Assembly (NCBI RefSeq): GCF_021502675.1
Contig: NZ_JAKFHA010000017.1
Span: 75,542-139,541, forward strand
Origin: Yinghuangia soli
GTDB taxonomy: Bacteria > Actinomycetota > Actinomycetes > Streptomycetales > Streptomycetaceae
Length of the DNA: 64,000 nucleotides
Reading direction: 5' to 3'
Shown: positions 32,288 to 59,230 of the stretch, piece after piece
Layout of the letters: each line of letters starts with the position of its first letter
Position numbering within the stretch: position 1 is the first letter of the stretch
Notes under the pieces: model-generated
Told to the model about the DNA's origin: nothing
Database searches by the model: none
The model's input: the letters and a program-made list of their open reading frames with translations, nothing else
Program-made: the position numbers and the translations under genes

Positions 32288-33139
32288 ATGCGCAGCAGGA
32301 GTTACGGCCCCGACCTCACCCCGCCGTGGAAGAAGCCGAAGCCGGTGCCCGAGGTGGAGGCCGAGCGGGATCTGGTCGTCGAAGAGGTCGAGACCGGGTT
32401 CTGCGGGGCCGTGGTGCGGGTGGAGAAGACGCCCGAGGGGTTCACCGTCACGCTGGAGGACCGGCACGGGAAACTGCGGGTGTTCCCGATGGAGCCGCGC
32501 GGGTTCATGGTGGACGGCGCGGTGGTGACGCTGGTGCGGCCCCGCGCGGCGCAGGCGGGGCCGGTGCGGCCGACGCGTACGGCGTCGGGTTCGGTGGCGG
32601 TCCCCGAGGCGCGGGCGCGCGTGGCGCGGGCCGGGCGCATCTACGTCGAGGGGCGGCACGATGCCGAACTCGTCGAACGGGTCTGGGGCGACGACCTGCG
32701 CATCGAGGGCGTGGTGGTGGAGTACCTGGAGGGTGTGGACGATCTGCCCTCGGTGGTGCGGGAGTTCAAGCCGGGTCCGGGGCGTGCGCTGGGCGTGCTC
32801 GTGGACCATCTCGTGCCGGGGTCGAAGGAGAGCCGGATCGCGGCGGAGGTCGCGGCGGGTCCGTACGGCGCGCATGTGCTGGTCACCGGGCACCCGTTCA
32901 TCGACATCTGGGAGGCGGTCAAGCCGTCCGTCCTCGGCATCGGTGCGTGGCCGAAGGTGCCGCGCGGCGTGGCCTGGAAGGACGGCGTGAACGCGGCGCT
33001 GGGGCGGACGTCGAGCACGGGTGAGACGTGGCGCTGGATCCTTTCCCATGTGGATTCGTACCAGGACCTCGAACCGGCATTGCTGGGCCGGGTCGAGGAG
33101 CTCATCGATTTCGTGACGGCGCCCGGCAGCGAAGATTGA
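32288..33139 (+). CDS. DUF3097 family protein
   Basis: 283 residues, a conserved actinobacterial protein of unknown function. An N-terminal ~90-residue beta-rich part (DLTPPWKKPKPVPEVEAERD, then FCGAVVRVEKTPEGFTVTLE) is followed by a TOPRIM-like segment: IYVEGRHDAELVERVWGDDL (Glu121) and GVLVDHLVPGSKESRIA, with an Asp after the strand. Next comes VLVTGHPFIDIWEAVKP. This suggests a nucleic-acid-related, metal-dependent role, but none is established to my knowledge. ATG 32288. Co-directional with the MBL gene across a 101-bp gap. Confidence 0.9.
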   Translation: MRSRSYGPDLTPPWKKPKPVPEVEAERDLVVEEVETGFCGAVVRVEKTPEGFTVTLEDRHGKLRVFPMEPRGFMVDGAVVTLVRPRAAQAGPVRPTRTASGSVAVPEARARVARAGRIYVEGRHDAELVERVWGDDLRIEGVVVEYLEGVDDLPSVVREFKPGPGRALGVLVDHLVPGSKESRIAAEVAAGPYGAHVLVTGHPFIDIWEAVKPSVLGIGAWPKVPRGVAWKDGVNAALGRTSSTGETWRWILSHVDSYQDLEPALLGRVEELIDFVTAPGSED

Positions 33140-44971: not shown

Positions 44972-45661
44972 CTACTGCTGCTGGGCTGCGGCGAGCTTGT
45001 CCACCTGGGCCTTGATGAGGGGCTCGGGGATGGGGACGGACTTGGCTCGGGCGACGTTCATCGTGGTGGTGATGACGAGCGCGGAGCCCTTGCGGACGAC
45101 GGTGTGCGGGATGGTGATGGTCTCGCCTTCCGCGCCGACGGCCAGTTCGAAGTAGAGGGCGGCGTCGCCGAGGGCCGGGGCGGGAGCCGTGGTCACCGCG
45201 GCCGGGGAGACTCCCCCGCCTTCCTGCTTGATGCCGAAGCCGGTGCAGCCGGGCAGCGCGGCGGTCGCGGCGGCGAGGAGGGCGGCGGCGTCCCCCTCCT
45301 TGTACTGGTTGATGCCGAGGTGCGAGGCGCCCTGCTCCTGGCCCGCGCCGAGGAGGCCGACGTCGACCTGGGCGGTCGGAGCGATCCCGGCGCTGCGGCC
45401 GGACACCAGGTCCATGACGGGCTGGCAGGCGGCCCGGTCGGCCTGGGCGATCTCGTCCTTCTCGACGTCCTTGCCGCCGCCGGCCAGCTCCCAGCCCTGG
45501 GGCAGCTCTGCCTGGGTGAGGAGTGCGGCTTCGAGGGCCTTCTGGTCGAGGGCGTCCGGGGCAGTCCTGCCGCCGTCCGAGTCGCTGCAGGCAGCAACCG
45601 CGAGCAGCAGCGGGACGGTCAGGAGAGCGGACAGGGCGGTACGGCCGGACGGCAGGCGCAT
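44972..45661 (-). CDS. Secreted lipoprotein, two-Cys sensor-like family (member 3)
   Basis: 229 residues, the shortest paralogue. Signal peptide and lipobox VAAC, almost no linker, then LEAALLTQAELPQGWEL, first Cys in AACQPVMDLV, second in PGCTGFGI, and a C-terminal helix LIKAQVDKLAAAQQQ. The two conserved Cys probably form a disulfide in the mature domain. Start ATG 45661. It is the last of five tandem copies transcribed leftward. Function unknown; the set probably presents related extracytoplasmic sensor or binding domains. Only the linker length and surface residues differ much between copies. Confidence 0.8.
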   Translation of the reverse strand: MRLPSGRTALSALLTVPLLLAVAACSDSDGGRTAPDALDQKALEAALLTQAELPQGWELAGGGKDVEKDEIAQADRAACQPVMDLVSGRSAGIAPTAQVDVGLLGAGQEQGASHLGINQYKEGDAAALLAAATAALPGCTGFGIKQEGGGVSPAAVTTAPAPALGDAALYFELAVGAEGETITIPHTVVRKGSALVITTTMNVARAKSVPIPEPLIKAQVDKLAAAQQQ

Positions 45662-45737
45662 GGACTTCCTCGGGCAGCGGACGGGCGGGGACGCCGTGCC
45701 CGCCAGCGTACGGCGTGCCCGGACCTGCCCGTGGTGG

Positions 45738-45786
45738 CCGCCGGGCGCGGCTGCGGTGTGGGCCGCGGCCGCGCGCCCGGCGGTGG
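45738..45786 (-). terminator. Hairpin between lipoprotein members 4 and 3
   Basis: GC-rich arms of about 14 bp with a 2-nt bulge, starting 17 nt past the member 4 stop. Confidence 0.45.
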
Positions 45787-45802
45787 CGTACCGGTCGCGG
45801 GG

Positions 45803-46618
45803 TCAGCTCTTCTGCGCGGCGGCGATCTTCTCGACCTGGGCCTTGATGACGGCGTTGTCGATGGGCTTGGCCGACGAGCCGTTCATGTCCAGGCCCTGGG
45901 CGCCGACCAGAACGGATCCGGAGCGCACGAAGACGATCGGGGCGTCGAAGGTCATCCCCTCGGCGGACATGTTCACGCTCAGGCCGAGGCTCTCGTCGCC
46001 CGCCTTGGCGCCGGCCGCCAAGGCGACCTTGTACGTGACCATCGTGCCGTCGGAGTCGGCGGTGAACTCCGCGCAGGACGGGACCGCCTTCTTCGCCGCG
46101 GCGAGCACCTTGGCGGCTTCGCCGCTCGGGAACGACAGGAGGCCGACGTTGTAGGTGGTGGTCGGCGCGCTCGTCGTCTGCAGCTCGGCGCTGGCCCGGC
46201 CGACGCCCTTGACGGGACCGGAGGCGTTGAGCAGGTCGGCGAGCGGCTGGCACGCGGGCGTGGAGGCCTTCGACGCGCCGGTCGGCTCGTCCTCCTCGTC
46301 CGGCTCGACCGTCCAGCCTGACGGGAGGTCGCCCGCGGCTACCAGCGCCGAGGTGAGCTGCGCGGTGGTGAGCGTCTTGCCGCCGCCGTTCGAACCACCG
46401 CCGGAGCCGGCATTCGCGCCGCCGGCCGGGGTGCTTGCGGAGCCGCCCGAGGACCCGCCCGCGGAACCGCCGCCCGTGCTCTCGGCGCCCGGGGTCTGCG
46501 CACCCGTGGCGCCGGCCGACTTGGCGTCTTCCTTCTTGTCGTCGGAGCCGCAGGCGGTGGCCAGGAACAGGAGCGGGACTGCGGCGACGGTGATCAGGCG
46601 GCGCGATGCGTGGCGCAT
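45803..46618 (-). CDS. Secreted lipoprotein, two-Cys sensor-like family (member 4)
   Basis: 271 residues. Signal peptide MRHASRRLITVAAVPLLFLA with lipobox TAC; a long Gly/Ser/Ala-rich linker to about residue 80; LTSALVAAGDLPSGWTV; first Cys in PACQPLADLL; second in PSCAEFTA; C-terminal VIKAQVEKIAAAQKS. ATG 46618 has AGAGGAATCC upstream. Second from the left in the tandem array. The Gly/Ser linker would hold the domain away from the membrane. Function unknown. Confidence 0.8.
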   Translation of the reverse strand: MRHASRRLITVAAVPLLFLATACGSDDKKEDAKSAGATGAQTPGAESTGGGSAGGSSGGSASTPAGGANAGSGGGSNGGGKTLTTAQLTSALVAAGDLPSGWTVEPDEEDEPTGASKASTPACQPLADLLNASGPVKGVGRASAELQTTSAPTTTYNVGLLSFPSGEAAKVLAAAKKAVPSCAEFTADSDGTMVTYKVALAAGAKAGDESLGLSVNMSAEGMTFDAPIVFVRSGSVLVGAQGLDMNGSSAKPIDNAVIKAQVEKIAAAQKS

Positions 46619-46787
46619 GGATTCCTCTTGTCTGAGCGGGACGCGGAAGGAGACGTGCGGGCGGGAATCATCGCGCATCGTTTGGTTGGCGCTGACGTCG
46701 GGTCAGGTCCGCATGCCGCCGGACAGGGCTGCGGCGGTGCGCGGCGCATCGCTGCGGCCGCGCACCGCCTGCCCGGAGGGTGGGTTT

Positions 46788-46812
46788 TCCGGGGACCCCC
46801 GCGGGCCCCGGA
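46788..46812 (-). terminator. Hairpin directly after lipoprotein member 5
   Basis: Perfect 7-bp arms (46788-46794 with 46806-46812) abutting the stop codon of the gene ending at 46813. Confidence 0.5.
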
Positions 46813-47637
46813 TCAGCCCTTCAGCGCCGCGACGACCTTGTCGACCTGCGTCTTGACCTGCGCGTCCGGCACGAACTCGGCGTTGTACGCGGTGCTTTCG
46901 GAGCGGCCGACCATCTTCACGAGCACGGCGCCGGAGCGGACGAGCTGGACGCTGGCCGAAATCGCCGGTTCCGAGGGGTCCTTCATCGTCTTCGGGTCGC
47001 CCCAGGTCACGCTGATCCACAGCGAGGCATCGCCCATCTTGGGCTGGTGGTCGCCGAAGCTGAACTGGTAGGCGGTCTTCTCGTCCTTGGTGTTGAGCGC
47101 CTCGAACTCCAGGCACTCGTGCTCACCGGCGATCTTGAGCGCGGCGTCCAACTGCTTCGAGACCGCCTCGGCGCTCTCGAAGCGGGCGATCGACAGGTCG
47201 ACCCAACTGCCCTTGTCCGCCGCGGACTCCAGGACCTCGCCGACGTGCACCGCGGGCTTCGGGGTGGACCCGGTCAGCAGGTCGAGCAGCGGCTGGCACT
47301 TCGCGGCGGCGGGCACGGCCTTCATCCCAATGCTGCCGTAGACCGTGCTCTTGGCCTGCTTGACGGTCCAGCCGGGGCCCAGGTCCTTCTGCGTGACGAG
47401 CAGGGCCTGGAGTTCGGAGATGTTGAGCGCCTTGCCGGGCGCCTGCGGGGCGCCGGTGGACGGTGCTCCGGTCGGCGCGGCGGATCCGGTCGCGGCGGGC
47501 GGCGACGCGGGCGCGGAGGACTGCGCGGCGTTGTCGGCCTTCGCGTCCTTGTCCTTGTCGTCGCCGAGGCAGGCGGTGGTGAGGAGAAGCAGCGGTACGA
47601 GAGCCGCACCGGCTATGCGTGCGCGGGCAGAGCGCAT
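46813..47637 (-). CDS. Secreted lipoprotein, two-Cys sensor-like family (member 5)
   Basis: 274 residues. Signal peptide with lipobox TTAC, Asp/Lys then Pro/Ala/Ser linker, NISELQALLVTQKDLGPGW, first Cys in AKCQPLLDLLTG, second in HECLEFEA, and end VKTQVDKVVAALKG. ATG 47637 with GAGG upstream. Middle gene of the array. It shares the 'ALLxxxDLxxGW' entry and the 'Cys-Gln-Pro-Leu' motif with members 3, 4 and 7. Function unknown. Confidence 0.8.
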   Translation of the reverse strand: MRSARARIAGAALVPLLLLTTACLGDDKDKDAKADNAAQSSAPASPPAATGSAAPTGAPSTGAPQAPGKALNISELQALLVTQKDLGPGWTVKQAKSTVYGSIGMKAVPAAAKCQPLLDLLTGSTPKPAVHVGEVLESAADKGSWVDLSIARFESAEAVSKQLDAALKIAGEHECLEFEALNTKDEKTAYQFSFGDHQPKMGDASLWISVTWGDPKTMKDPSEPAISASVQLVRSGAVLVKMVGRSESTAYNAEFVPDAQVKTQVDKVVAALKG

Positions 47638-47672
47638 GGGGAGAACCTCGTCGTTTCCGTGGGGGGACGGCA

Positions 47673-47705
47673 GAACGGGACGGCCTGTGCGTGGCCGTCC
47701 CGTTC
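47673..47705 (-). terminator. Terminator hairpin between lipoprotein members 6 and 5
   Basis: Perfect 13-bp arms (47673-47685 with 47693-47705), loop 7. Next to it is an 11-bp direct repeat ATGATCACGTA at 47708-47718 and 47722-47732. Confidence 0.7.
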
Positions 47706-47757
47706 CCATGATCACGTACTGATGATCACGTAGTGCTGGGACGCCGCCCGCCCCACG

Positions 47758-48537
47758 TCAGTTCTGCTGCGCCTTGACGAGCTTGTCGTATTGAGCACGG
47801 ACCATCGCCTCGGGAGCCGTGGCGGCTGCAGCCGTGGACTCCGACGGCTTGTCCCCCACGGCCGAGCCGTACACCTGCACGAGCGCGGATCCGCTGCGCA
47901 CCAGGCAGACGATCGCCGAACCGGAAAGGTCCGCGACGAACTCGACGACCAGCGAATCGTCGCCGAAGCCGTACCCCTTGCCGTCCTTCGCGCCCGGCTG
48001 CGCCGGGCCGGGCCGCACTGCGAAGGCGATCGTGTCGCCCTCGTCGTCGGTCATCGCGAACGACGTGCACTTCGCCAACGCCGCCCGCGCCTCGGCGACC
48101 AGCTTTTCCGCTGTCCCGGCAGCGTAGGTCGCGGTGCTCACCATGGCCGTGTGGCCCAGCGGTGCGCCTTCCTTGGTGACGGCGACCTGTGCCGCAGCGA
48201 GCGGCCGGTATCCCCGGGCCGGCGAGAGCAGTTGGGCCAACGGCAGGCACTCGGCCTTGTCGACCGTCTTGTCCGAGTAAATGTCCTCGTCGACGACGGA
48301 ATCGGACAAGGCGCGGTAGCCGGGCAGGTCGTCGCCGGTCAGCAGCGCGTCCTGAAGTTGCCGGGCGGTCAGGGCCTTGCCGCCCGGCGTGCCCGCGCCC
48401 GGGGTCTGCGAGTTGCCCGGCCTCGTGGCCACCGTGTCGGACGTGTCGTCCTTCTTGCCACCGGACTCGCATGCCGACACGAGCAGGAACATCGGGATTG
48501 CTGCGGCGATGGCGAGACGCTTGCCGATGAATCGCAT
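47758..48537 (-). CDS. Secreted lipoprotein, two-Cys sensor-like family (member 6)
   Basis: 259 residues. Signal peptide MRFIGKRLAIAAAIPMFLLV with lipobox SAC, short linker, LQDALLTGDDLPGYRAL, first Cys in AECLPLAQLL, second in AKCTSFAM, and a third Cys in AIVCLVRSG that the other copies lack. C-terminal MVRAQYDKLVKAQQN is nearly the same as member 7. ATG 48537 with AAGGA upstream. The closest relative of member 7 in the array. Function unknown. Confidence 0.8.
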   Translation of the reverse strand: MRFIGKRLAIAAAIPMFLLVSACESGGKKDDTSDTVATRPGNSQTPGAGTPGGKALTARQLQDALLTGDDLPGYRALSDSVVDEDIYSDKTVDKAECLPLAQLLSPARGYRPLAAAQVAVTKEGAPLGHTAMVSTATYAAGTAEKLVAEARAALAKCTSFAMTDDEGDTIAFAVRPGPAQPGAKDGKGYGFGDDSLVVEFVADLSGSAIVCLVRSGSALVQVYGSAVGDKPSESTAAAATAPEAMVRAQYDKLVKAQQN

Positions 48538-48567
48538 GCAGAAAGGTCCTTCGCACATCGAATAGGG

Positions 48568-48599
48568 CGGCCGACCGGTCCGCGGGGATCGGTCGGCCG
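48568..48599 (-). terminator. Terminator hairpin between lipoprotein members 7 and 6
   Basis: Perfect 10-bp arms (48568-48577 with 48590-48599), starting 9 nt past the member 7 stop. Confidence 0.65.
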
Positions 48600-48607
48600 A
48601 CGGCGGC

Positions 48608-49390
48608 TCAGCTCTTCTGGGCCTTGACGAGCTTGTCGTACTGGGCGCGGAGCAGGGACGCGTCGATGGTGTTCTCCGACGGGGCGTCTTTGGTGATGTC
48701 CATGTCGAGGACCATGCCCTGCAGGACGACGGGGCCGCTGCGGACGAAGACGACCTGGAGGAGGGTCGGGTCGGTTTCGCCGTCCTCGAGCATCGAGAAG
48801 TCGAGGGCCAGCGAGTCGTCGCCGAAGCCGGGCTTCTTGGCTTCCTTGGTCGTGTACGCCGTCTTGGTGTTCTCGGGGTCGACGGCGGAGAACGACGCGC
48901 ACTTGGAGAGCGCGGCGCGGGCGTCCTTGAGGGCCTTTTCGGCCTTGTCGCCGTCGAACTGGCCGAGCGCCATCATGTGCACGGTCTTGGGGGCCGTCTC
49001 CTTGTTCACGGCCACGGTGGCGGTGAGCGACGGCATGTGGTCCTTGTCGGCCGCCACGAGGTTCATGAGCGGCTGGCATTCGGGCTTGTCGGTCTTCTCC
49101 GGGGACGCCGAGTCGTCCTCGGGGTCGCCGGTCGTGGCGGTCCAGCCGGGGACGTCGGCGCTGACCAGCAGGGCCGCCTTGAGCTTGTCCTCGGTGAGCG
49201 CCTTGCCGCCGGGCTTGCCGGCCGGGGAGTCTGCCGCGCCGGGCGTGCTGCCCGGCGTGGCGCCCGCGTTGCCGGCGTTGCCGGCCGTGGCTGATTTGTC
49301 GTCCTTCTTGTCGTCCGAGCTGCAGGCGGTGGCCAGGGCGAGCAGCGGGACGATTGCGGCGACGGCGATCCGCTTACCGGCAAAACGCAT
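48608..49390 (-). CDS. Secreted lipoprotein, two-Cys sensor-like family (member 7)
   Basis: 260 residues. Signal peptide MRFAGKRIAVAAIVPLLALA with lipobox TAC, Asp/Lys then Ala/Gly/Pro linker, LKAALLVSADVPGW, first Cys in PECQPLMNLV, second in SKCASFSA, and end LLRAQYDKLVKAQKS. ATG 49390 with AAAGGAAG upstream. It begins the leftward array and is divergent from the dynamin operon across 211 bp, so both units share one control region. Function unknown; envelope location is certain from the lipobox. Confidence 0.8.
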   Translation of the reverse strand: MRFAGKRIAVAAIVPLLALATACSSDDKKDDKSATAGNAGNAGATPGSTPGAADSPAGKPGGKALTEDKLKAALLVSADVPGWTATTGDPEDDSASPEKTDKPECQPLMNLVAADKDHMPSLTATVAVNKETAPKTVHMMALGQFDGDKAEKALKDARAALSKCASFSAVDPENTKTAYTTKEAKKPGFGDDSLALDFSMLEDGETDPTLLQVVFVRSGPVVLQGMVLDMDITKDAPSENTIDASLLRAQYDKLVKAQKS

Positions 49391-49601: not shown

Positions 49602-51785
49602 ATGCACGTGGGGAACACTCATGGGCCGGGCGATCACCGGTCCCAAGTCGCGCGCGACGAACGCCGCGACACGATCGAGGCACTGACCGAGGTGTCCGAC
49701 CACCTCGATTTCGCGCTGCGCCTGGTGCGCAGCACGGTCGCCGACCGCGACCGCCTCGCGGACCTGACCGCGCGCATCCGCAGCGTCGAGGAGCGCCTGA
49801 AGGACGACCGGTACTACCTGGCCGTCATCGGCGAGTTCTCGGCCGGCAAGAGCACCTTCATCAACGCCCTGCTGGGCCTGGACCTGCTGCCCACATCCGC
49901 GCTGCGCACCACCGCGGCGGCGACCCGGATCACGCACGGTCCGGAGTTCTCCCTGCTGGTGCGCTTCCGCAACGACGGCATCCGGTACGTGTACCCGGCG
50001 GGCCGCACCGAAGGGGCGGCGAGCCCGCTGGGCCGCATGCTGCTGCACCTCGCGCCTTACCTGCGCGTGCCGTCCGACACCGCGGGCATCCTGTCGCTGC
50101 TCACCGCGGACGAGCGCATCGCCCCGCACCTGGAGTACCTGGAGGTGCGGCACCCCGCGACGCCGCTGCGCGACGGCCTGGTGATCATCGACACGCCGGG
50201 CACCAACGCGGAGGTCGGGCACACCGAGATCACCGCCGAGGTGATGCGCGGCGAGGCGGACCTGGCTGCGGTGCTGAGCCCGTCCGCGTCGCCTGCGTCG
50301 TCCTCGCTGACCGGTTTCCTCACCGAGGCGCTGGATCCCGCGCTGCTGCGCCGCTGCATCTTCCTCGTGACGAAGATGGACCACGTCGAGGAGGACGAGC
50401 ACGACGACCTGCTCAACCATGTACGGCGCCGGTTCGCGCGGCTGCTCGACCTGGACGACGTGGTGGTGCAGGGCGTCGCGGCCGATGCGGTGCTGCGCCG
50501 GGCGACCGGGCGGCCGCTGCTCGGCCCGGAACAGGAGTACTGGGCCGACATCTTCCCCACCACGCTGGCCGCGCTGCGCGATCTGATGCAGCGCCAGCGC
50601 ATCATCGCGGTCTCCGACCATCTGCTGCGCCTCCTGGAGGACGTGCTCGGCGAGATGGGCAGCGAACTGGAGGACGCGCAGCGCCGGCTGGCCGAGGAGG
50701 AGGCCGAACTCGGCGCGGTGCGGGTGCCGGACCTGGCCGCGTTCGCGCAGCGGCACGCGGTGCGCGGCGGCCTGCTGGTCGACGCGGGGGCGGAGAACGC
50801 CCGGCGCGCGGTGAGCGCGATGGCCGCGCAATGGCAGCAGTACACGCGGCGTTCGATCGATGCGGCGATAGATGCGGCGGTCACGCCGGACGACATGCGC
50901 CGGGTGATCCGCACCGATGTGCCCGACCTGATCCGGCGCGACCTGCCGCGTATCGGCGACGTCGTGCAGACCGCGGTCACCGCCGCCTTGGCGGACGGCG
51001 CGAAGCAGGCCGAGGCGGCGGTGGAGGGCGCGTTCGAGGCCGAGTACGCCAAGCTCGACCAGACCACCGCGCGCGTCCTGCGGCCCAACTTCACCGTGGT
51101 GAACGGGCATGCGCTGGCGGACAGCATGCTGCAGGCGTACGAGTCCAACGTCGCGGGTGTCACACAACAGCTACGGGCGGTTCGCCAACAGGCAACAAGA
51201 TCAGGACCGATCGGCTCCGGAGTGGACCAGTGGTTCACCTCGATGCCCCCGCCGACGGGTCCGCGCAAGGGCACCGTGCCGCCCAACATGCCGCCCCCGG
51301 TGCCGCGGCATTCCGGACAGTTCGCCCCGCCGAATCAGGACAGACCCGTCCCATATCCGGTGCAATCGCCCCCGCCGATCCCGCCTCCGCCGGGCGCCCA
51401 ACTGCGCGGTGGGCTGGGCGGTTTCGCGGCGCGCGTGGCCGACTCGCTTTCCTCGACGGACATGAATCTGCTGCGGAACCACGCACGGGCCGAAATGCAT
51501 CAGACACTCCAGACGGTCGCGACCGGCCTCGCCGTCCAGATCGACGAGGCGATCGAGTCCGCCACCGGGCACTACGCGGGAACCGTCCGCGAGCACGTGG
51601 AGCAGTACCGGGCCGCGTACGAGCAGACGGTCGCCGACATGGTCACCGAGCACCACCGGCGCGAGGCCATCCTCGCGGCGCGCAGGACCCTGCTGCAGGA
51701 CGCAAGCAGGCAGACGGAACGGCGACGCGCGACGGTCAACTCCCAACGCGAGCGCCTCTCTACTCGGGGGGGAACCCGAATATGA
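49602..51785 (+). CDS. Dynamin-like GTPase 1
   Basis: Bacterial dynamin-family large GTPase, 727 residues. G1 GEFSAGKSTFINALLG (78-93), G2 LRTTAAATRI with the switch threonine, G3 IIDTPGTNAEVGHTEIT (about 196-212), G4 TKMDHVEEDEHDD (257 on). A long helical stalk follows (LLRLLEDVLGEMGSELEDAQ). At about 545-600 a Pro-rich linker with PPP/PPPP clusters interrupts it, then a short amphipathic region and a final coiled coil (REAILAARRTLLQDASRQTE). No clear transmembrane helix, unlike its two partners. ATG 49602. Its stop overlaps the next ATG (ATGA). Expected role: membrane association or remodelling; no function known. Confidence 0.9.
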   Translation: MHVGNTHGPGDHRSQVARDERRDTIEALTEVSDHLDFALRLVRSTVADRDRLADLTARIRSVEERLKDDRYYLAVIGEFSAGKSTFINALLGLDLLPTSALRTTAAATRITHGPEFSLLVRFRNDGIRYVYPAGRTEGAASPLGRMLLHLAPYLRVPSDTAGILSLLTADERIAPHLEYLEVRHPATPLRDGLVIIDTPGTNAEVGHTEITAEVMRGEADLAAVLSPSASPASSSLTGFLTEALDPALLRRCIFLVTKMDHVEEDEHDDLLNHVRRRFARLLDLDDVVVQGVAADAVLRRATGRPLLGPEQEYWADIFPTTLAALRDLMQRQRIIAVSDHLLRLLEDVLGEMGSELEDAQRRLAEEEAELGAVRVPDLAAFAQRHAVRGGLLVDAGAENARRAVSAMAAQWQQYTRRSIDAAIDAAVTPDDMRRVIRTDVPDLIRRDLPRIGDVVQTAVTAALADGAKQAEAAVEGAFEAEYAKLDQTTARVLRPNFTVVNGHALADSMLQAYESNVAGVTQQLRAVRQQATRSGPIGSGVDQWFTSMPPPTGPRKGTVPPNMPPPVPRHSGQFAPPNQDRPVPYPVQSPPPIPPPPGAQLRGGLGGFAARVADSLSSTDMNLLRNHARAEMHQTLQTVATGLAVQIDEAIESATGHYAGTVREHVEQYRAAYEQTVADMVTEHHRREAILAARRTLLQDASRQTERRRATVNSQRERLSTRGGTRI

Positions 51786-53428
51786 CCGAGCCCTACGGCG
51801 ACGACCTGTACACGGAGCTCCCGGCCGACGGCCTGGACGACATGTCGCTGGACACCACGCTCGCGGACGACGCGGGCAGCACCGACCTGCTGTGGGAGAC
51901 CGCGCCGGACGGCATCGAGACGCTGGACGCGGTCGCCGACCCGGCGCTCGACGCGCCGGCCCCCGATCTGCCCGACTACACCGACCCGCTGGACGTGCCG
52001 CAGGGCGGCGACATCCCCACCGAGGAGCCCCCCTACACCGGGACCGGCACCGGCGACCCGATCGAGCCCGGCGCGCAGCAGGAGCTCGACCCGTACATGC
52101 CGGGCGCCGAGGACCCGTACGCGGAGGGCACCGGCGAGGACCCGTACGGCGAGACCGGCACCGACCCGTACGCGGACGCCGGTTCCGAGGACCCGTACGC
52201 GGTCGACCCGAACGACCCGAACGTCGGCCTGGACCCGTCCGACCCGAACTACGACCACTACTACGCCGAGCACGGCTACCCGTACGACGGCCCGAGCGAC
52301 GTCTCGGACGCCGCGGTCGAGGACGACAACAGCGAGGCGCCGAGCGACCCGCTGCCGGTCGACGACTACACGGGCTACGACCCCGACGCGTACACGCCGA
52401 CCGACTACTCGTACGACGACCCGTTCGCCTACCCGGGCTACGACGAGGGCTACGACCCGTACGGCGAGGCGGGCTACGACCCGTACGCGGACGGCCCGTA
52501 CGGCGGCGGCTACGACGTGGTGTACGACCCGTGCTGGGGCGACTTCGGCTACGACCCGTACCAGCAGATCTTCGTCGAGGTCAACGTCACGGTCGAGGGC
52601 GACGTGTACGTCGTCGGCGACCAGACCGCGGACGTGTACGTGGTCGACGACTCGGACACCTACATCGACAACTCCGACAACTCCACGACGTACGTCGACA
52701 ACTCGACGACCTACGTGGACAACTCCTCCGACACCCACGTGGACGTCGACTACACCGAGACCACCGTGGTCCAGGAAGAGGTCGTGTACTACGAGGGCTG
52801 GGACGGCGACTCGGCCCCGCCGTACGAGTCCTACGGCCCGATGGAGATCGCGCACTACACGCCGGACTGGAACGTCACGGACTTCGACGGCGTGGGCGAC
52901 CCGCTGGCCGACGCCGCGTACTTCCACGAGGCGGAGAACCCGGTCAACACCCCGCTGGTGACCGAGGGCCAGATCATCGAGAAGCTGACCGGCACCCCGT
53001 TCAACGAGGAGGCGCTGGCCGCGCAGGCCGAGAACGCCGGCTTCTTCGACCCCGAGCTGGGCATGACGAACACCGACGTCGGCAGCCTGCTGGAGCTGCA
53101 CGGCATCGAGACCGAGACGGTCTACGACGCCGACATGGACACCATCATGAACGCGCTGGAGAGCGGCGACCCGGTCATGGCGGTGGTCGACGTCAACGAG
53201 ACCGGCATCCCGATGCGCGACGTGGTGACCGGCGAGCCCATCGAGCAGAACCCGTCCGTCATGGGCTCGGTGTGGGTCACCGGCGTCGACGTGCAGCCCG
53301 ACGGCTCGGTCTACGTCCTCGTGAACGACCCGGGCTGGCCCGAGGGCCAGACCCAGGCGATCGCGATCGAGGACTTCGCGAACGCGTGGGAAGAGAGCGG
53401 CAACCAGGCGGTCATCGCACACGCCTGA
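51782..53428 (+). CDS. Acidic DPY-repeat protein with a C39-like pseudo-peptidase domain
   Basis: 548 residues, extremely acidic. Residues ~1-250 are Asp/Tyr/Pro/Gly-rich with more than a dozen DPY repeats. Residues ~260-340 are a Val/Asp/Thr/Asn strand-rich region with repeated TTYVDNS. The C-terminal ~180 residues resemble a C39-like peptidase: GQIIEKLTGTPFNEEALAAQ, TDVGSLLELHGIETETVYDA, ESGDPVMAVVDV, VWVTGVDVQPDGSVYVLVND, IEDFANAWEESGNQAVIAHA. However, the catalytic Cys near its N-edge and the His before VTGVD are missing; the only Cys lies in the repeat half. No signal peptide. Start ATG 51782 is coupled to GTPase 1. It may be a scaffold or cargo for the GTPases. Confidence 0.8.
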   Translation: MTEPYGDDLYTELPADGLDDMSLDTTLADDAGSTDLLWETAPDGIETLDAVADPALDAPAPDLPDYTDPLDVPQGGDIPTEEPPYTGTGTGDPIEPGAQQELDPYMPGAEDPYAEGTGEDPYGETGTDPYADAGSEDPYAVDPNDPNVGLDPSDPNYDHYYAEHGYPYDGPSDVSDAAVEDDNSEAPSDPLPVDDYTGYDPDAYTPTDYSYDDPFAYPGYDEGYDPYGEAGYDPYADGPYGGGYDVVYDPCWGDFGYDPYQQIFVEVNVTVEGDVYVVGDQTADVYVVDDSDTYIDNSDNSTTYVDNSTTYVDNSSDTHVDVDYTETTVVQEEVVYYEGWDGDSAPPYESYGPMEIAHYTPDWNVTDFDGVGDPLADAAYFHEAENPVNTPLVTEGQIIEKLTGTPFNEEALAAQAENAGFFDPELGMTNTDVGSLLELHGIETETVYDADMDTIMNALESGDPVMAVVDVNETGIPMRDVVTGEPIEQNPSVMGSVWVTGVDVQPDGSVYVLVNDPGWPEGQTQAIAIEDFANAWEESGNQAVIAHA

Positions 53429-53442
53429 TCCGGATAGCCGTC

Positions 53443-53486
53443 CGGCGGGCCGGGCGTCCTGGTGACGTCCCGGGCCCGGCCCGCCG
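53443..53486 (+). terminator. Hairpin between the acidic protein and GTPase 2
   Basis: Perfect 13-bp arms (53443-53455 with 53474-53486), followed by TTTG. It may divide the operon or set a lower level for the downstream GTPases. Confidence 0.6.
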
Positions 53487-53548
53487 TTTGCGGCATCCCG
53501 TCCGATCCGCTTGCCCACAACCTGACTTCCCTCGAGAGGACTACCTCC

Positions 53549-56149
53549 GTGACCATCGACCGTGAGGCCGTCAACGCCCGCGTCGCGCAGACCCAGCCCC
53601 GCCGCCAGAGCGGCGTCGCCGCGCTGCTCGGCGGCATCCACCGCAGCGCCGAACTGAAGGGCTGGCTCAAGTCCGGCTCGATCGCGCTGCCGCCCGTCGC
53701 CGAGCGCGTGGACGGCACCTGGACGCTGACCGCGCTCGTCGCGGTCGGCCGCCGCGAGCCGCAGGCGCCGGTCATCACCGTGTCCCCCGCGTGGGGCGCG
53801 GTGCAGTGGGAGTGGCCTTCGCAGAAGGTGCTCCAGCACACCACGCTCGCCGAGCACGCCGCGGCCGCCGACATGCTCGCCAAGGCGGCCGGCGCCGAGA
53901 CGAACTGGAACCTGTCGATGCAGGCCGAGGCGCTGGCCGCGCGGGCCCGCTTCTTCCAGACGCTGACCCGCTTCGTCTCCGAGCCGGGCGAGCGCGACCT
54001 CAAGCTGCTCACCCGCGCCTACGCGCAGGTGCTCCCGCGGGCCGCGTACCCGATCTACCACATGCTGGTGCCCAGCACCCGCAGCTGGCTGCAGGTCTCG
54101 CCGGCCGCCCCCGCGAAGGCGGCGGCGGGCCGTGAGCAGCGCTCGCGTTCGGCGGGCGCCTCGGCCGAGGCCGGCGTCGCCGGTCTACCCGGCCCGTCGA
54201 GGACCGCGGCGCAGCAGCAGCCTGCTGCGCCGAAGGCGGCCCCGGCCGGCGCCGCGGCACGGGGCGCGGGGGCCCCGGCGCGCGGCACCGGTCCGTCCTC
54301 GGCGGGCGCTCCTCCCCGGCGGGCCGCCACCGCGGCTCCCGCGGCGACGCCCAGGCGCGATGCGGGCTCCGGCCCCAGCCTGGTCAAGTCCGCGGGCGCC
54401 GCACTCAGCACGCCCATCACCGAGGCGCGCGAACTGGCCGAGCAGTACGGCCTGGAGCAGATCTGCACCGAGGTCGACCGGCTGCGCGCCCGGATGCGCC
54501 GGCCCGGCTTCCGCATCGCGGTGGTCGGCGAGTTCGGCCGCGGCAAGTCGACGCTGGTGAACCGCCTCCTCGGGGCCAAGGTCGTCCCCGAGGGACGGCA
54601 CACCCGCGTCCCGGTCGTGGTGGCGCCCGGGCCCGAGGCCCGGCTCGAACTGCAGTACGCGGACGGCCGGGCCGAGGTCCGGCCGTCCGTCCCGGAGTCG
54701 TGGGCGGACCTGGACGAGGCCGCGGCGCGCGAGGGCGGCGCCGCGCTGGTCGGCATCCGCGTGCTGGTCGCCGACCCGGAACTGGCCCGGCTCGACGTGG
54801 AGATCGTGGACACTCCCGGGGTGAACGCGGGACTCGGCGAGGGCGTGGACGACGACCAGGCCCAAGACCTGGTGCGGCGTACCGTGGCGGCCAGCGACGC
54901 GGCGTTCATGGTGGTGTCCGCGAGTGCGCCGCTCGGGCTGTCGGAGACCTCGTTCCTCGAGGAAGAGGTCATCTCCAAGCACGTGCCGCGGATCACCGTG
55001 GTGGTGTCGAAGCTGGACTCGGTCGACGAGGACGAGCGCGAGGACATCGTCGACTACCTGGGCGGCCGCGTGCGGCGCATCGCCCCGGTGCTCGAAGTGC
55101 TGCCCGGTCCGCACCGCGAGGACAGCGCGCCGATCGCCGGGGTGCGGGCCCGCCTGGAGGAGTACGCCGGTTCCGGCGGGCGGCGGGCCATGCGGGCCCG
55201 CCAGACCGCGGGCCAACTCCTGGGCCTCCTCGAGGAGATGACCGAACTGGCCCGGCAGGGCGTGGCGGACTCGGCGCTCAGCGTCGAGGACAAGCGGCGC
55301 GCGGCCGAGGCCGCCGAGGTCGAGATCGACAACATGACCGCGGAATGGGGCAAGGTCCGCGTGGAGCTGCAGAAGCGGCGCAGCACCACCGCGGAGAAGT
55401 TCCGCGAGCACCTGGCGCAGTCCCAGGAGGACCTGCTCGGGGTGCTGAAGTACGAGATGGACCGCACCCCGGACCCCAAGACGTGGTGGGAGCGCGACCT
55501 GCCGTTCCGGCTGCGCCGTGAGCTGACCGCGATGGCCAAGAAGTACGAGGGCCAGCTGCACTCCAGCGTCAGCGCCGACCTGCAGTGGCTCGACGCGCAG
55601 ATGAAGCGGCACTTCGGCAAGGGCAGCACGCACAAGGTCGACAAGGCCGAGCAGCTGTCCACCGAGTTCGAGCTGAACGAGGCCGAGGAACTGGGCCTCA
55701 AGGACCTCAAGAGCCGCAAGCTGGCCTGGCGCATCGGACCCAGCGGCGTGGCCGTGCTGGGCATGCTGATCATCCCGCTGACCGGCGGCCTCGCGGCCAT
55801 CCCGATGGGTGCGGGCATGGCGGCCTCGGTGGGCGGCATGGTGCTCGGCGAGGTCAAGTCCGGCTCGCTCACCGAACAGCAGCGCGGGCAGGCCGCGAAG
55901 GCCCTGGAACCGGCCATCGAGGAGATGCTGTCCGGCTTCTCGCAGCAGGTCTCGGACCGGCTGTACGAGCTGTACGCGGGCGTCATGGACGAGGCCGTAC
56001 GCGGCCAGAAGGCCTGGCGTGCGGACCGGCTGCAGGCGCTCACCGCGCAGGGCTCGGACGGGCCGGACTGGCAGGAACTGTTCACCCGAACCCAGGAATT
56101 GATCACCGGCGTCAGCGCATTGATCGACGGTGACGGCACGGACGCGTGA
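53549..56149 (+). CDS. Dynamin-like GTPase 2 (membrane-anchored)
   Basis: 866 residues. A novel N-terminal domain (1-190; GIHRSAELKGWLKSGSIALP and NWNLSMQAEALAARARFFQT) precedes a ~100-residue Ala/Pro/Gly linker. The GTPase has G1 GEFGRGKSTLVNRLLG (327 on), the Thr-containing HTRVPVVV switch, G3 VDTPGVNAGLGEGVDDD and G4 SKLDSVDEDERED. A long coiled-coil stalk then leads to a hydrophobic hairpin (about 733-770: VAVLGMLIIPLTGGLAAIPM, GAGMAASVGGMVLGE), and a C-terminal helical bundle follows. This layout, with the membrane hairpin inside the stalk, resembles mycobacterial IniA. The start GTG 53549 has AGAGGA 8 nt upstream. Confidence 0.88.
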   Translation: MTIDREAVNARVAQTQPRRQSGVAALLGGIHRSAELKGWLKSGSIALPPVAERVDGTWTLTALVAVGRREPQAPVITVSPAWGAVQWEWPSQKVLQHTTLAEHAAAADMLAKAAGAETNWNLSMQAEALAARARFFQTLTRFVSEPGERDLKLLTRAYAQVLPRAAYPIYHMLVPSTRSWLQVSPAAPAKAAAGREQRSRSAGASAEAGVAGLPGPSRTAAQQQPAAPKAAPAGAAARGAGAPARGTGPSSAGAPPRRAATAAPAATPRRDAGSGPSLVKSAGAALSTPITEARELAEQYGLEQICTEVDRLRARMRRPGFRIAVVGEFGRGKSTLVNRLLGAKVVPEGRHTRVPVVVAPGPEARLELQYADGRAEVRPSVPESWADLDEAAAREGGAALVGIRVLVADPELARLDVEIVDTPGVNAGLGEGVDDDQAQDLVRRTVAASDAAFMVVSASAPLGLSETSFLEEEVISKHVPRITVVVSKLDSVDEDEREDIVDYLGGRVRRIAPVLEVLPGPHREDSAPIAGVRARLEEYAGSGGRRAMRARQTAGQLLGLLEEMTELARQGVADSALSVEDKRRAAEAAEVEIDNMTAEWGKVRVELQKRRSTTAEKFREHLAQSQEDLLGVLKYEMDRTPDPKTWWERDLPFRLRRELTAMAKKYEGQLHSSVSADLQWLDAQMKRHFGKGSTHKVDKAEQLSTEFELNEAEELGLKDLKSRKLAWRIGPSGVAVLGMLIIPLTGGLAAIPMGAGMAASVGGMVLGEVKSGSLTEQQRGQAAKALEPAIEEMLSGFSQQVSDRLYELYAGVMDEAVRGQKAWRADRLQALTAQGSDGPDWQELFTRTQELITGVSALIDGDGTDA

Positions 56150-56226
56150 CACCGGTCCGTTGACCGTATGATCCGCAGGGATCGTCGCACGGGGGACGGA
56201 CCGGCGCGGCGGAGGGAGGGAGAGCA

Positions 56227-58221
56227 GTGGACCAGCACCGGGACCGGGGACTCGCGGGGGCACGCGGCGGCGCAGGCGGCTACAGCGCTTGGCGGGCCCG
56301 CCAGGAGACCCTGGTGGAGCTCATCGACCGGCTGACGCCGATCATCTCGGGCCTGTCCATCGGCAGCGGCGTGAAGAAGCTGGCGTCGGTGCGCACCCGG
56401 GCCGCCTCCGAGGCGTTCAAGGTGATGATCGTCGGGGAGTTCAAGCGCGGCAAGAGCACCGTGATCAACGCGATGCTCGGCGACAAGGTGCTGCCCTCCT
56501 TCGCCCGGCCGTGCACCGCGATCATCAACGAGGTGATGTGGGCGGACCAGCGCTCGGCGCTGATCTATCCGCTGGAGCCGGACGGCACCGCGGGCGAGCC
56601 GATCCCGATCTCGGTCGAGGAGATCGTCGACTACGTCACCATCGGCGCGGACGACGACAACACGCCCAACCCGTACCAGCGCGCGGTGGTCCGCTGGCCG
56701 CTGGAGCTGTGCCGCAACGGCGTCGTGGTGGTCGACTCGCCGGGCCTGAACGAGGCGCCCGAGCGCGAGCGCGTCACGCTGGCGTACCTGGAGCAGGCCG
56801 ACGTGCTGGTCTTCGTGGTCGACTGCCAGGCGGCGATGTCGCGCAGCGAGCAGCTGTTCCTCGACGTGCACGTCAAGGCCCGCGGGCACGAGGACGTCTT
56901 CTACGTCGGCAACAAGATCAACCTGGTGGAGGACGAGGAGCGCGAGGACGTCAAGCGCGAGATCCGCAAGCGCCTGGGCCCCTATGTCTCCCGTCCCGAC
57001 CGGGTCTTCTTCGTGAACGCGCGCGCCGCGCTCAACGGGCGCCGCAAGGGCGACCCGGAGCTGGTCGGCGAGTCCGGCATGGTGGAACTGGAGCGCGCGC
57101 TCGAGGAGTTCCTCACCCGCGAGCGCGGCCGCGCGAAGATCCTGTCGCCGGCCCGCGAGCTGAAGTACCTGCTCATCGAGGCGCGCGAGCAGATCGACCG
57201 CAAGGAGGCGATGCTCACCCAGAGCGTCGACGACCTGCGGGCCACGTACGAGCGCGTGCAGGTGCCGCTGACCCGGCTCGAGCAGAACCGCCGCGTCATC
57301 GTCGCGCAGATGGAAGGGCACCTGCGCGAGACGCGCGGCGAAGTCGAGGACGCCGGCCGCCGGTTCATGAACCGGGTGATCGGCCAGGTGCCGGGCTGGG
57401 CGCGGGACTACGACCCGACCAACTCGCTCGGCGCCAACCCGTTCAAGGCGCGCGAGAAGATGGAGGCGGCGGTCCGGGAGATCTCCGACCACCTCTCCGG
57501 GCGCATCCAGGTGGCGTTCGCGGAGTGGCAGGAGAAGGAGCTCAAGCCGCTGCTGACCCGGCGCGTCGAGGACCTGGAGCGGTCCATCGACGACGACGTG
57601 AAGCAGTTCGTGACGCGCATCGACGAGATCCGCGCGTCGCTCACCCCGGCCGAGGCCGAGACGCAGATCCTCAAGGTCCCGGACAAGACGCAGGCCCCGC
57701 TGGAGCGCCTGCTGGCCGACGCGGTCTCCTTCGTGCTGGACCCCGGGACCGCGCTGAGCGGCGGGAAGTTCAGCCTGCGCACGATGCTCACCACGCTGCT
57801 GCCGCAGATCGCGGTGGGCGCCATCGCGATCTTCGTGGGCCTGGGCCCGGTGGCGATCTTCGCGATGCTGCTGGGCGGCAACCTGTTCCGCGGCGCACTG
57901 CAGCTGAACAAGGCGAACCAGCGGATGAAGGAGCAGGTCGCCGAGCAGTTGGTCGAGGAGCTGCGGGGCCGGTCCGATGCGGACGTGCAGGCGCTGGGCG
58001 ACGAGATCACCAAGCAACTGCGGACCATGCGCGACGCGATCGCGCAGGGCCTCGACGCGGAGATCAAGAGCATCCGGGACGAGGTCGGCGAGGCGCTCCG
58101 GACCAAGGAGCAGGGCGAGTCGGACGCCAAGAAGACGGGGGCGGACCTGCGGCGCTACGCGGGCGAGCTGAACCGGATCGACGAGCAGCTCGCGGACTTG
58201 ATCATGGACGTGGCGCTGTAG
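56227..58221 (+). CDS. Dynamin-like GTPase 3 (membrane-anchored)
   Basis: 664 residues. G1 GEFKRGKSTVINAMLGD (70 on), RPCTAIINEVMW switch, G3 VVDSPGLNEAPERERVT, G4-like GNKINLVEDEEREDVKREIR (Asn-Lys-Ile-Asn rather than T/N-K-x-D). A coiled-coil stalk follows (EQIDRKEAMLTQSVDDLRAT). A hydrophobic double helix at about 520-556 (LLPQIAVGAIAIFVGLGPVA, IFAMLLGGNLF) is followed by another coiled coil to the end. GTG 56227 with GGAGGGAGAGCA upstream. It lies 77 bp after GTPase 2. The altered G4 could weaken guanine specificity. It most probably hetero-oligomerises with the other two. Confidence 0.88.
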   Translation: MDQHRDRGLAGARGGAGGYSAWRARQETLVELIDRLTPIISGLSIGSGVKKLASVRTRAASEAFKVMIVGEFKRGKSTVINAMLGDKVLPSFARPCTAIINEVMWADQRSALIYPLEPDGTAGEPIPISVEEIVDYVTIGADDDNTPNPYQRAVVRWPLELCRNGVVVVDSPGLNEAPERERVTLAYLEQADVLVFVVDCQAAMSRSEQLFLDVHVKARGHEDVFYVGNKINLVEDEEREDVKREIRKRLGPYVSRPDRVFFVNARAALNGRRKGDPELVGESGMVELERALEEFLTRERGRAKILSPARELKYLLIEAREQIDRKEAMLTQSVDDLRATYERVQVPLTRLEQNRRVIVAQMEGHLRETRGEVEDAGRRFMNRVIGQVPGWARDYDPTNSLGANPFKAREKMEAAVREISDHLSGRIQVAFAEWQEKELKPLLTRRVEDLERSIDDDVKQFVTRIDEIRASLTPAEAETQILKVPDKTQAPLERLLADAVSFVLDPGTALSGGKFSLRTMLTTLLPQIAVGAIAIFVGLGPVAIFAMLLGGNLFRGALQLNKANQRMKEQVAEQLVEELRGRSDADVQALGDEITKQLRTMRDAIAQGLDAEIKSIRDEVGEALRTKEQGESDAKKTGADLRRYAGELNRIDEQLADLIMDVAL

Positions 58222-58348
58222 GCCCTGCGGGCCGCAGCGGTCGGAGGCCGCGACTCCGGCAGGGAAGACTGTCACCGCGCCCCGCTACCGTCGGGCCCGT
58301 CCTGACGGCGGGTTGCGGGTGCGCGGCCGATGCGGAGCGGAGAAGCGA

Positions 58349-59230
58349 GTGCCGACGGTCATGACGGCCGGATCCTGGGCTGCGCTGGATGCGGACGGGG
58401 CCGCGGCTGCCGCACGGGCAATTGCCGCAGGATTGCCCGGTGTCGGGTTCGCGGGGGTCGAGGACGGGCCGGTCGTCGACGGACGGGTGTGGCAGCGGGC
58501 GTACTTCGCGTGCGCCGGGCGGCGTTACGCGCTGGTGCCGGGCGGGCGGGTGCGGTTGGGGTTCGACGTGGACAGGTTCGTGCCGACGGCCGGACAGGCT
58601 GCGTCGTATGCGCAGAGTGCGGCGGAGTACGGGATGCGTGGTGACCTGCACGAATACCTGCGCGGCATGGGCGGGTCCGCCGGGGCCGTGCTGAGTCCGC
58701 CGCGTGCCGCCGTGCTGCCGACGCTGCTGGTGGCCGTCGACCCGGTCGAACTCGGCGAGTTGGTCGACTGGGACGACGAGGACGAAGACGCAGGTGACGA
58801 CGACGGGGACGTCGGCGCCGCGGAAGTGCGCGCGGCGGAAGCGGCGTTGGCCGAAGTCGGGGCGCGGCTCGCGACGCCGGACGAGTGGGAGTACGCCTGC
58901 GGAGCGGGCGTGGGCACGCTGTTCCGCTGGGGCGGCGAGTACCCGGGCGAGACCGACCCGTACACCACAGCCGACGGGCCGCAGCAGGCGCCGAACCGGT
59001 TCGGGCTGCGCATCGCGTACGACCCGTACGTCTCGGAACTGACCTCGGAGCCCGGCACGATGACGGGCGGCGACGGCGGCGAGGCGACCTGCGGCGGGTA
59101 CGGCGCCTTCCTGGCGTGGCTGCCGCTGGCATCCGCATACCGCTCGACGCCGGCCGAGGACGTCCTCGCCGACTACCTCGGCGAGGCCTGGGTGCGGCCC
59201 GTCATCGACGTGGCGCCCGCTCCTGCGTAG
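58349..59230 (+). CDS. FGE/SUMF1-fold-like protein without catalytic cysteines
   Basis: 293 residues. After a ~95-residue alpha/beta start and an Asp/Glu-rich stretch (about 140-160) comes a segment like formylglycine-generating enzyme/SUMF1 and related lectin-fold proteins: RLATPDEWEYACGAGVGTLF (173 on), RWGGEYPGETDPY, and PNRFGLRIAY. The paired catalytic Cys of FGE, normally in the C-terminal RGGSW region, are not present, so it should not convert sulfatase cysteines. The start GTG 58349 has GGAGAAG upstream; GTG 58313 and ATG 58361 are alternatives. It follows GTPase 3 by 127 bp on the same strand, so it may belong to the dynamin locus, and is convergent with hemW. Confidence 0.65.
   Translation: MPTVMTAGSWAALDADGAAAAARAIAAGLPGVGFAGVEDGPVVDGRVWQRAYFACAGRRYALVPGGRVRLGFDVDRFVPTAGQAASYAQSAAEYGMRGDLHEYLRGMGGSAGAVLSPPRAAVLPTLLVAVDPVELGELVDWDDEDEDAGDDDGDVGAAEVRAAEAALAEVGARLATPDEWEYACGAGVGTLFRWGGEYPGETDPYTTADGPQQAPNRFGLRIAYDPYVSELTSEPGTMTGGDGGEATCGGYGAFLAWLPLASAYRSTPAEDVLADYLGEAWVRPVIDVAPAPA

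Follow-up and report, generated by a model that had tools for sequence, protein, structure and literature searches.

The stretch of DNA analysed here, 64,000 nucleotides from Yinghuangia soli and referred to below as the window, comes from an actinomycete genome assembled in 91 contigs (9.7 Mb, 72% GC). It contains a run of co-directional genes in which three different dynamin-like GTPases, DLP1, DLP2 and DLP3, accompany an acidic protein (Table 1).

Table 1. Genes and domains at the dynamin-like GTPase locus, in window positions
Feature	Position	Strand	Basis
DLP1, dynamin-like GTPase, 727 aa	49602..51785	+	ATG start; Dynamin_N E 7e-23
Acidic partner protein, 548 aa	51782..53428	+	ATG start; composition, conserved order
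C39-like (papain-fold) domain of acidic protein	52841..53425	+	model, Foldseek, profile match, alignment
DLP2, dynamin-like GTPase, 866 aa	53549..56149	+	GTG start; Dynamin_N E 3e-18
DLP2 extra N-terminal domain, residues 1-185	53549..54103	+	profile search, model
DLP3, NpBDLP1-like dynamin, 664 aa	56227..58221	+	GTG start; Dynamin_N E 5e-25
Passenger (fifth) gene, 293 aa, acidic, weakly FGE/sulfatase-like	58349..59230	+	GTG start; PF03781 E 0.001, below cut-off

Gene order and the three GTPases

The ORF coordinates agree with a preliminary description of this locus, which had noted co-directional genes with the first GTPase gene overlapping that of the acidic protein. The overlap is a 4-nt ATGA, best explained by translational coupling of the acidic protein to DLP1, and is followed by gaps of 120 bp between the acidic gene and DLP2 and 77 bp between DLP2 and DLP3. 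A consensus search resolved no sigma-70-type promoter or terminator at the four-gene unit, a result that says little at this GC content. Given the two gaps and this result, a single transcript is putative; an operon-like layout of the four co-directional genes is nonetheless supported. The same description had drawn its boundary around five genes. We rejected the fifth as a member because it is missing from the other Yinghuangia loci and from those of a sister genus (code g4, probably Embleya), in which DLP3 is followed by hemW. Relatives of this gene were found in 19 other genomes among the 121 family genomes searched, none of them another Yinghuangia. Thus, the conserved unit comprises four genes, and the fifth is a passenger.

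Adjoining the DLP operon on the minus strand, at 44972-49390, five small genes for lipoprotein-like products (229-291 aa) follow one another, all similarly laid out. They are apparently a tandem family, and similar genes flank the locus of Yinghuangia seranimata.

All three GTPases match Dynamin_N above its cut-off and keep the P-loop and DxPG motifs, which bears out their earlier description as three distinct dynamin-like GTPases. Their G1, G3 and G4 motifs read GEFSAGKS, DTPG and TKMD in DLP1; GEFGRGKS, DTPG and SKLD in DLP2; and GEFKRGKS, DSPG and NKIN in DLP3, the last of these G4 motifs being non-canonical. Long hydrophobic stretches in the C-terminal halves of DLP2 (about residues 733-766) and DLP3 (about 517-554) are membrane hairpins as predicted from sequence, and the hydrophobicity of DLP1 reveals no membrane segment, so that the proposed division into two anchored GTPases and one predicted soluble GTPase stands. 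The Pro-rich linker ascribed to the soluble GTPase is present in the window DLP1 (about residues 546-605) and in the Yinghuangia copies only, and does not extend beyond them. DLP1 orthologues in six other genomes are 59-82% identical to it.

DLP2 carries an extra N-terminal domain, followed by an Ala/Pro linker of its own. In a profile search, with the loci then collected, this domain was confined to Yinghuangia and the sister genus; its model is moderate (pLDDT 74) and has no PDB match at E<=0.001. DLP3 is the most conserved member, at 93% identity within the genus and 79% between genera. It matches the helical domain Dynamin-like_hel_bact (PF21808, E 6e-19), and its match to NpBDLP1 of Nostoc punctiforme (2J68/2J69/2W6D) is nearly full-length (2j68, E 2e-31, residues 56-632); unlike NpBDLP1, DLP3 is encoded in one operon with two other GTPases and an acidic protein.

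The acidic protein and its relatives

The acidic protein has a pI of 4.05 and no Lys or Arg in residues 1-355. Its N-terminal two thirds are low-complexity and rich in Asp, Tyr and Pro, with DPY repeats (8 observed in the protein vs 0.6 expected from shuffles), as the earlier reading of an acidic DPY-repeat protein had it. At the C-terminus lies a domain predicted to adopt a papain-like, C39-like fold: its model is confident (pLDDT 92.6), the best Foldseek match is the C39-like peptidase 3erv (E 9e-6, prob 1.0), and a profile match to the same structure has E 7e-4. Pfam C39 models do not match the window protein or its six close orthologues, and two relatives, at loci L136 and L137, exceed the Peptidase_C39_2 cut-off.

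In an alignment of 14 relatives, the catalytic Cys is kept except in the three Yinghuangia rows, where it is Thr (window), Ser or Ala, and the catalytic His is kept except in the same three, where it is Gly (window), Ser or Asn. An Asn-Asp that follows the Cys and His positions is invariant. The papain fold is thus common to the window protein and the C39-like peptidases (PF13529; 3ERV), and Cys, His and Asp are kept in sister-genus and Streptomyces relatives; the window protein differs in lacking Cys and His, in its fusion to a DPY-rich acidic part and in its link to DLPs. The label "acidic pseudo-peptidase" in the preliminary description therefore suits Yinghuangia and fails for the sister genus, whose copies retain both residues. 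On this sequence evidence, a domain that is peptidase-like in the sister genus and dead in Yinghuangia is the best explanation. Within the genus, dN/dS of the C39 domain is about 0.45-0.69 vs 0.11-0.13 for DLP3, rough values given the strong codon bias and simple method.

Searching 346 Streptomycetaceae genomes with a profile of the C39 domain gave nine strong matches (at least 178 bits), every one of which adjoins a DLP gene. These are the seven known copies plus one each in genomes G322 and G497, where the order is DLP, acidic C39 gene, one or two small genes, DLP, Hsp70; in the L136 cassette, one small gene is GrpE-like. A tenth match, at L137 (family f26), is flanked by an Hsp70-DLP pair on one side and by another DLP on the other. 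A class-wide search also gave mycobacterial matches; the adjacency tally comprises the strong Streptomycetaceae matches and L137. Two weak matches that we inspected (L167, L168) belong to other enzymes with no DLP nearby. As in the window, the acidic C39 protein of the Hsp70-DLP cassettes (L136, L137, L166) lies between two DLP genes; these cassettes differ in having Hsp70, in the GrpE-like gene of L136 and in their DLP lineage, the DLPs of L136 and L137 falling outside the DLP1-3 clades in a G-domain tree. Since the same kind of protein, with its domain intact, occurs between DLPs of another lineage, the acidic C39 protein is a recurrent DLP partner.

Genes with at least four DPY or EPY motifs are commoner beside DLPs (6/103) than at a distance of at least three genes (1/439). 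Of these six, however, five are orthologues of one another, which leaves two independent cases and no statistical proof. The single distant gene is also an orthologue, its DLP having been missed by the gene caller. At another locus (L145, 6488-7999), a protein with SLT_3 lysozyme-like and NlpC/P60 domains adjoins a DLP, with an Hsp70-like gene nearby; this is another papain-like fold beside a DLP.

Conservation and ancestry of the triple

Searching the family with the acidic protein recovered it from three Yinghuangia and four sister-genus genomes. The order DLP1, acidic gene, DLP2, DLP3 is kept in these seven genomes of two genera, beside hemW, which DLP3 faces; the check proposed in the preliminary description, whether the order is kept in other genomes with the acidic gene included, thus came out positive. 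In one sister-genus genome (G037), the locus is divided by a contig break within DLP2; the remainder of DLP2 continues on a second contig, together with DLP3 and hemW. The hemW flank in eight genomes of other genera has no DLP, and often shows instead the hrcA/dnaJ region and a gene like that at window 32288-33139 (MRSRSYGPDLTPPWKK...), which we take to be DUF3097-like. The cluster was therefore either inserted in the ancestor of the two genera or retained only by it. A scan of named genomes with DLP2 returned only Y. seranimata, and plasmid records yielded no actinobacterial DLP3 relative, only distant dynamins, mostly cyanobacterial.

Beyond these two genera, a trimmed DLP2 profile (A5) run against the 346 Streptomycetaceae genomes found orthologues above a threshold of 500 bits in 14, namely the seven Yinghuangia and sister-genus genomes and seven in genera g9 (presumed Streptomyces), g13 and g6. 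Six of the latter seven have the full set of DLP1, DLP2 and DLP3 genes, arranged in the window's order; in the seventh (G398), DLP2 is cut by the start of the contig. Most sampled Streptomycetaceae genomes have no triple. In the Streptomyces-type triples the acidic gene is missing and DLP2 has no N-terminal domain. A fourth gene lies 3' of the triple (L050, L095, L096, L097, L098, L100), encoding a conserved globular N-terminal part and a His/DPY-rich low-complexity tail; it has no Pfam or NCBIfam match and only a cyclase-like hint (E 0.21). A DPY-rich partner is thus present in both kinds of triple.

In a tree of 90 G domains, DLP1 is sister to position 1 of the Streptomyces-type triple (support 100/96), DLP2 groups with position 2 (97/93) and DLP3 with position 3 at moderate support (94/80); the placement of DLP1 next to DLP2 has 84/93. 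Four further genomes encode a two-DLP pair, one member of which joins DLP3 (100/100) and the other DLP2 (97/92), so that the triple looks like this pair with DLP1 added. Elsewhere, a DLP2/DLP3-like pair (L105) sits between rsmE-like and phoH-like genes, in a chromosomal neighbourhood in which hemW and hrcA lie in other genomes. Two Streptomycetaceae loci (L102, L103) have three DLPs of lineages other than those of the window, with several Hsp70-like genes and one sigma-factor-like gene interspersed among them.

DLP genes of bacteria mostly occur in pairs, and heterotypic complexes of their products have been described (PMC6104087). Campylobacter Cj-DLP1/2 and Streptomyces DynA/DynB resemble the window in being adjacent, different dynamin-like GTPases, expected to form membrane hetero-oligomers; the window differs in having three GTPases, not two, and an acidic papain-fold partner. 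Because related bacteria also carry three-GTPase sets, the locus seems to be a form of the common bacterial dynamin pair that has three parts and has not been described before. In the literature we covered on DLPs with Hsp70, in defence operons and in actinobacteria, a scope outside which most subscription journals fell, this arrangement is not described.

Possible roles of the four-gene unit

Taken together, the gene set, its motifs and order, the orthology by position and the loss of Cys and His, as read from the sequences, lead us to favour, with moderate confidence, a vertically inherited operon whose products form a heterotypic membrane-remodelling machine of three dynamin-like components, with the acidic protein as a non-catalytic adaptor. 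DLP2 and DLP3 would be the membrane-anchored members, descended from a heterotypic DLP pair, and DLP1 would be an addition to them, soluble and akin to the DLP2 lineage. The hairpins of DLP2 and DLP3 would insert into the inner face of the plasma membrane, and G-domain dimerisation with DLP1 could cross-link or constrict the coat. Assembly would be controlled by the acidic protein, in the cytoplasm, its papain-fold domain and DPY-rich disordered part binding or gating the GTPases with no substrate being cut. Membrane remodelling would be the natural expectation from the dynamin family; IniA cuts membranes in vitro (PMC6715688). The task is likely membrane or envelope maintenance in hyphae, and the conservation of DLP3, equal to that of HemW, suits a core task. 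Weighing against this reading are the G4 motif of DLP3, the support values for the placements of DLP3 and of DLP1 next to DLP2, the putative status of the single transcript and the fast evolution of the acidic protein, which could mean relaxed constraint.

Alternatively, the locus may be an anti-phage or conflict system in which the acidic C39-like protein formerly served as effector or sensor and the GTPases reseal or protect the membrane on infection. The Streptomyces-type triples are indeed sporadic, strong DLP2 orthologues outside the two genera being limited to 7/346 genomes, one triple (G505) is about 47 kb away from the end of its contig, and Bacillus subtilis DynA has been reported to be active against phage. 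PADLOC LeoA/LeoBC models match each of DLP1-3 (E 1e-14 to 1e-23), although they match dynamins in general. We consider a defence role unlikely because the unit occupies one fixed site in all Yinghuangia and sister-genus genomes found, contains no called nuclease or toxin gene and includes a GTPase as conserved as HemW.

It also seems improbable that the unit is a sporulation or septation module acting with FtsZ in the manner of Streptomyces DynA/DynB, even though the hosts form sporulating hyphae, DLP2 and DLP3 trace back to a DLP pair, and DynA/DynB stabilise FtsZ rings (PMC8748795). The triple is missing from most sampled Streptomycetaceae genomes, and the same genome has another GTPase pair that is possibly the dynAB locus. 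This separate pair (L142; C19, about 44.5-47.7 kb; 519 and 533 aa) lies beside an SSB-like gene and forms a clade of its own, and one of its P-loops reads GAGRS instead of GAGKS.

The preliminary description had likened the locus to mycobacterial iniBAC, and a divergent IniB-IniA-IniC operon responding to envelope-drug stress would account for the acidic repetitive protein adjoining dynamin-like GTPases and for the PDB match of DLP3 to IniA (E 2e-11). We rejected homology because the acidic protein has no match to IniB_NTERM (NF038175), which the same library finds in acidic genes at three other loci (L139, L057, L063), and because DLP1-3 fall outside both the clade of IniA-position sequences, in a tree that holds no named IniA sequence, and that of mycobacterial sequences of about 500 aa, which we take to be IniC-sized. 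A repetitive partner and dynamin-like GTPases in one operon are common to both, whereas the window has no IniB domain, other DLP clades, three GTPases and a C39-like domain; the likeness is one of layout, and common descent is very doubtful. Overall, the observations of the preliminary description held up and its interpretation did so in part, the iniBAC homology and the five-gene boundary having fallen. Finally, that these genes are mere neighbours that do not work together, with the acidic gene inserted by chance, is scarcely credible: other genera have the triple without this fast-evolving gene, but the ATGA coupling, the order kept in seven genomes and the location of all nine strong homologues beside DLP genes, including those of a different lineage, argue against it.

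Descriptions of bacterial dynamins usually concern single proteins or pairs; here a triple recurs, its order unchanged in genomes of five genera. With each member in a lineage of its own, the triple is a natural test of three-part hetero-oligomerisation. We propose, more tentatively than the membrane-remodelling operon itself, that actinobacterial dynamins use a dedicated class of acidic papain-fold partner, common to two DLP lineages (the triple and the Hsp70-DLP cassettes) and a pure scaffold in Yinghuangia, with the triple as a true three-subunit machine. The recurring partner is a concrete lead on DLP regulation in actinobacteria, and the contrast between intact domains in the sister genus and Streptomyces and dead ones in Yinghuangia offers a way to ask whether cutting ever belonged to its job.
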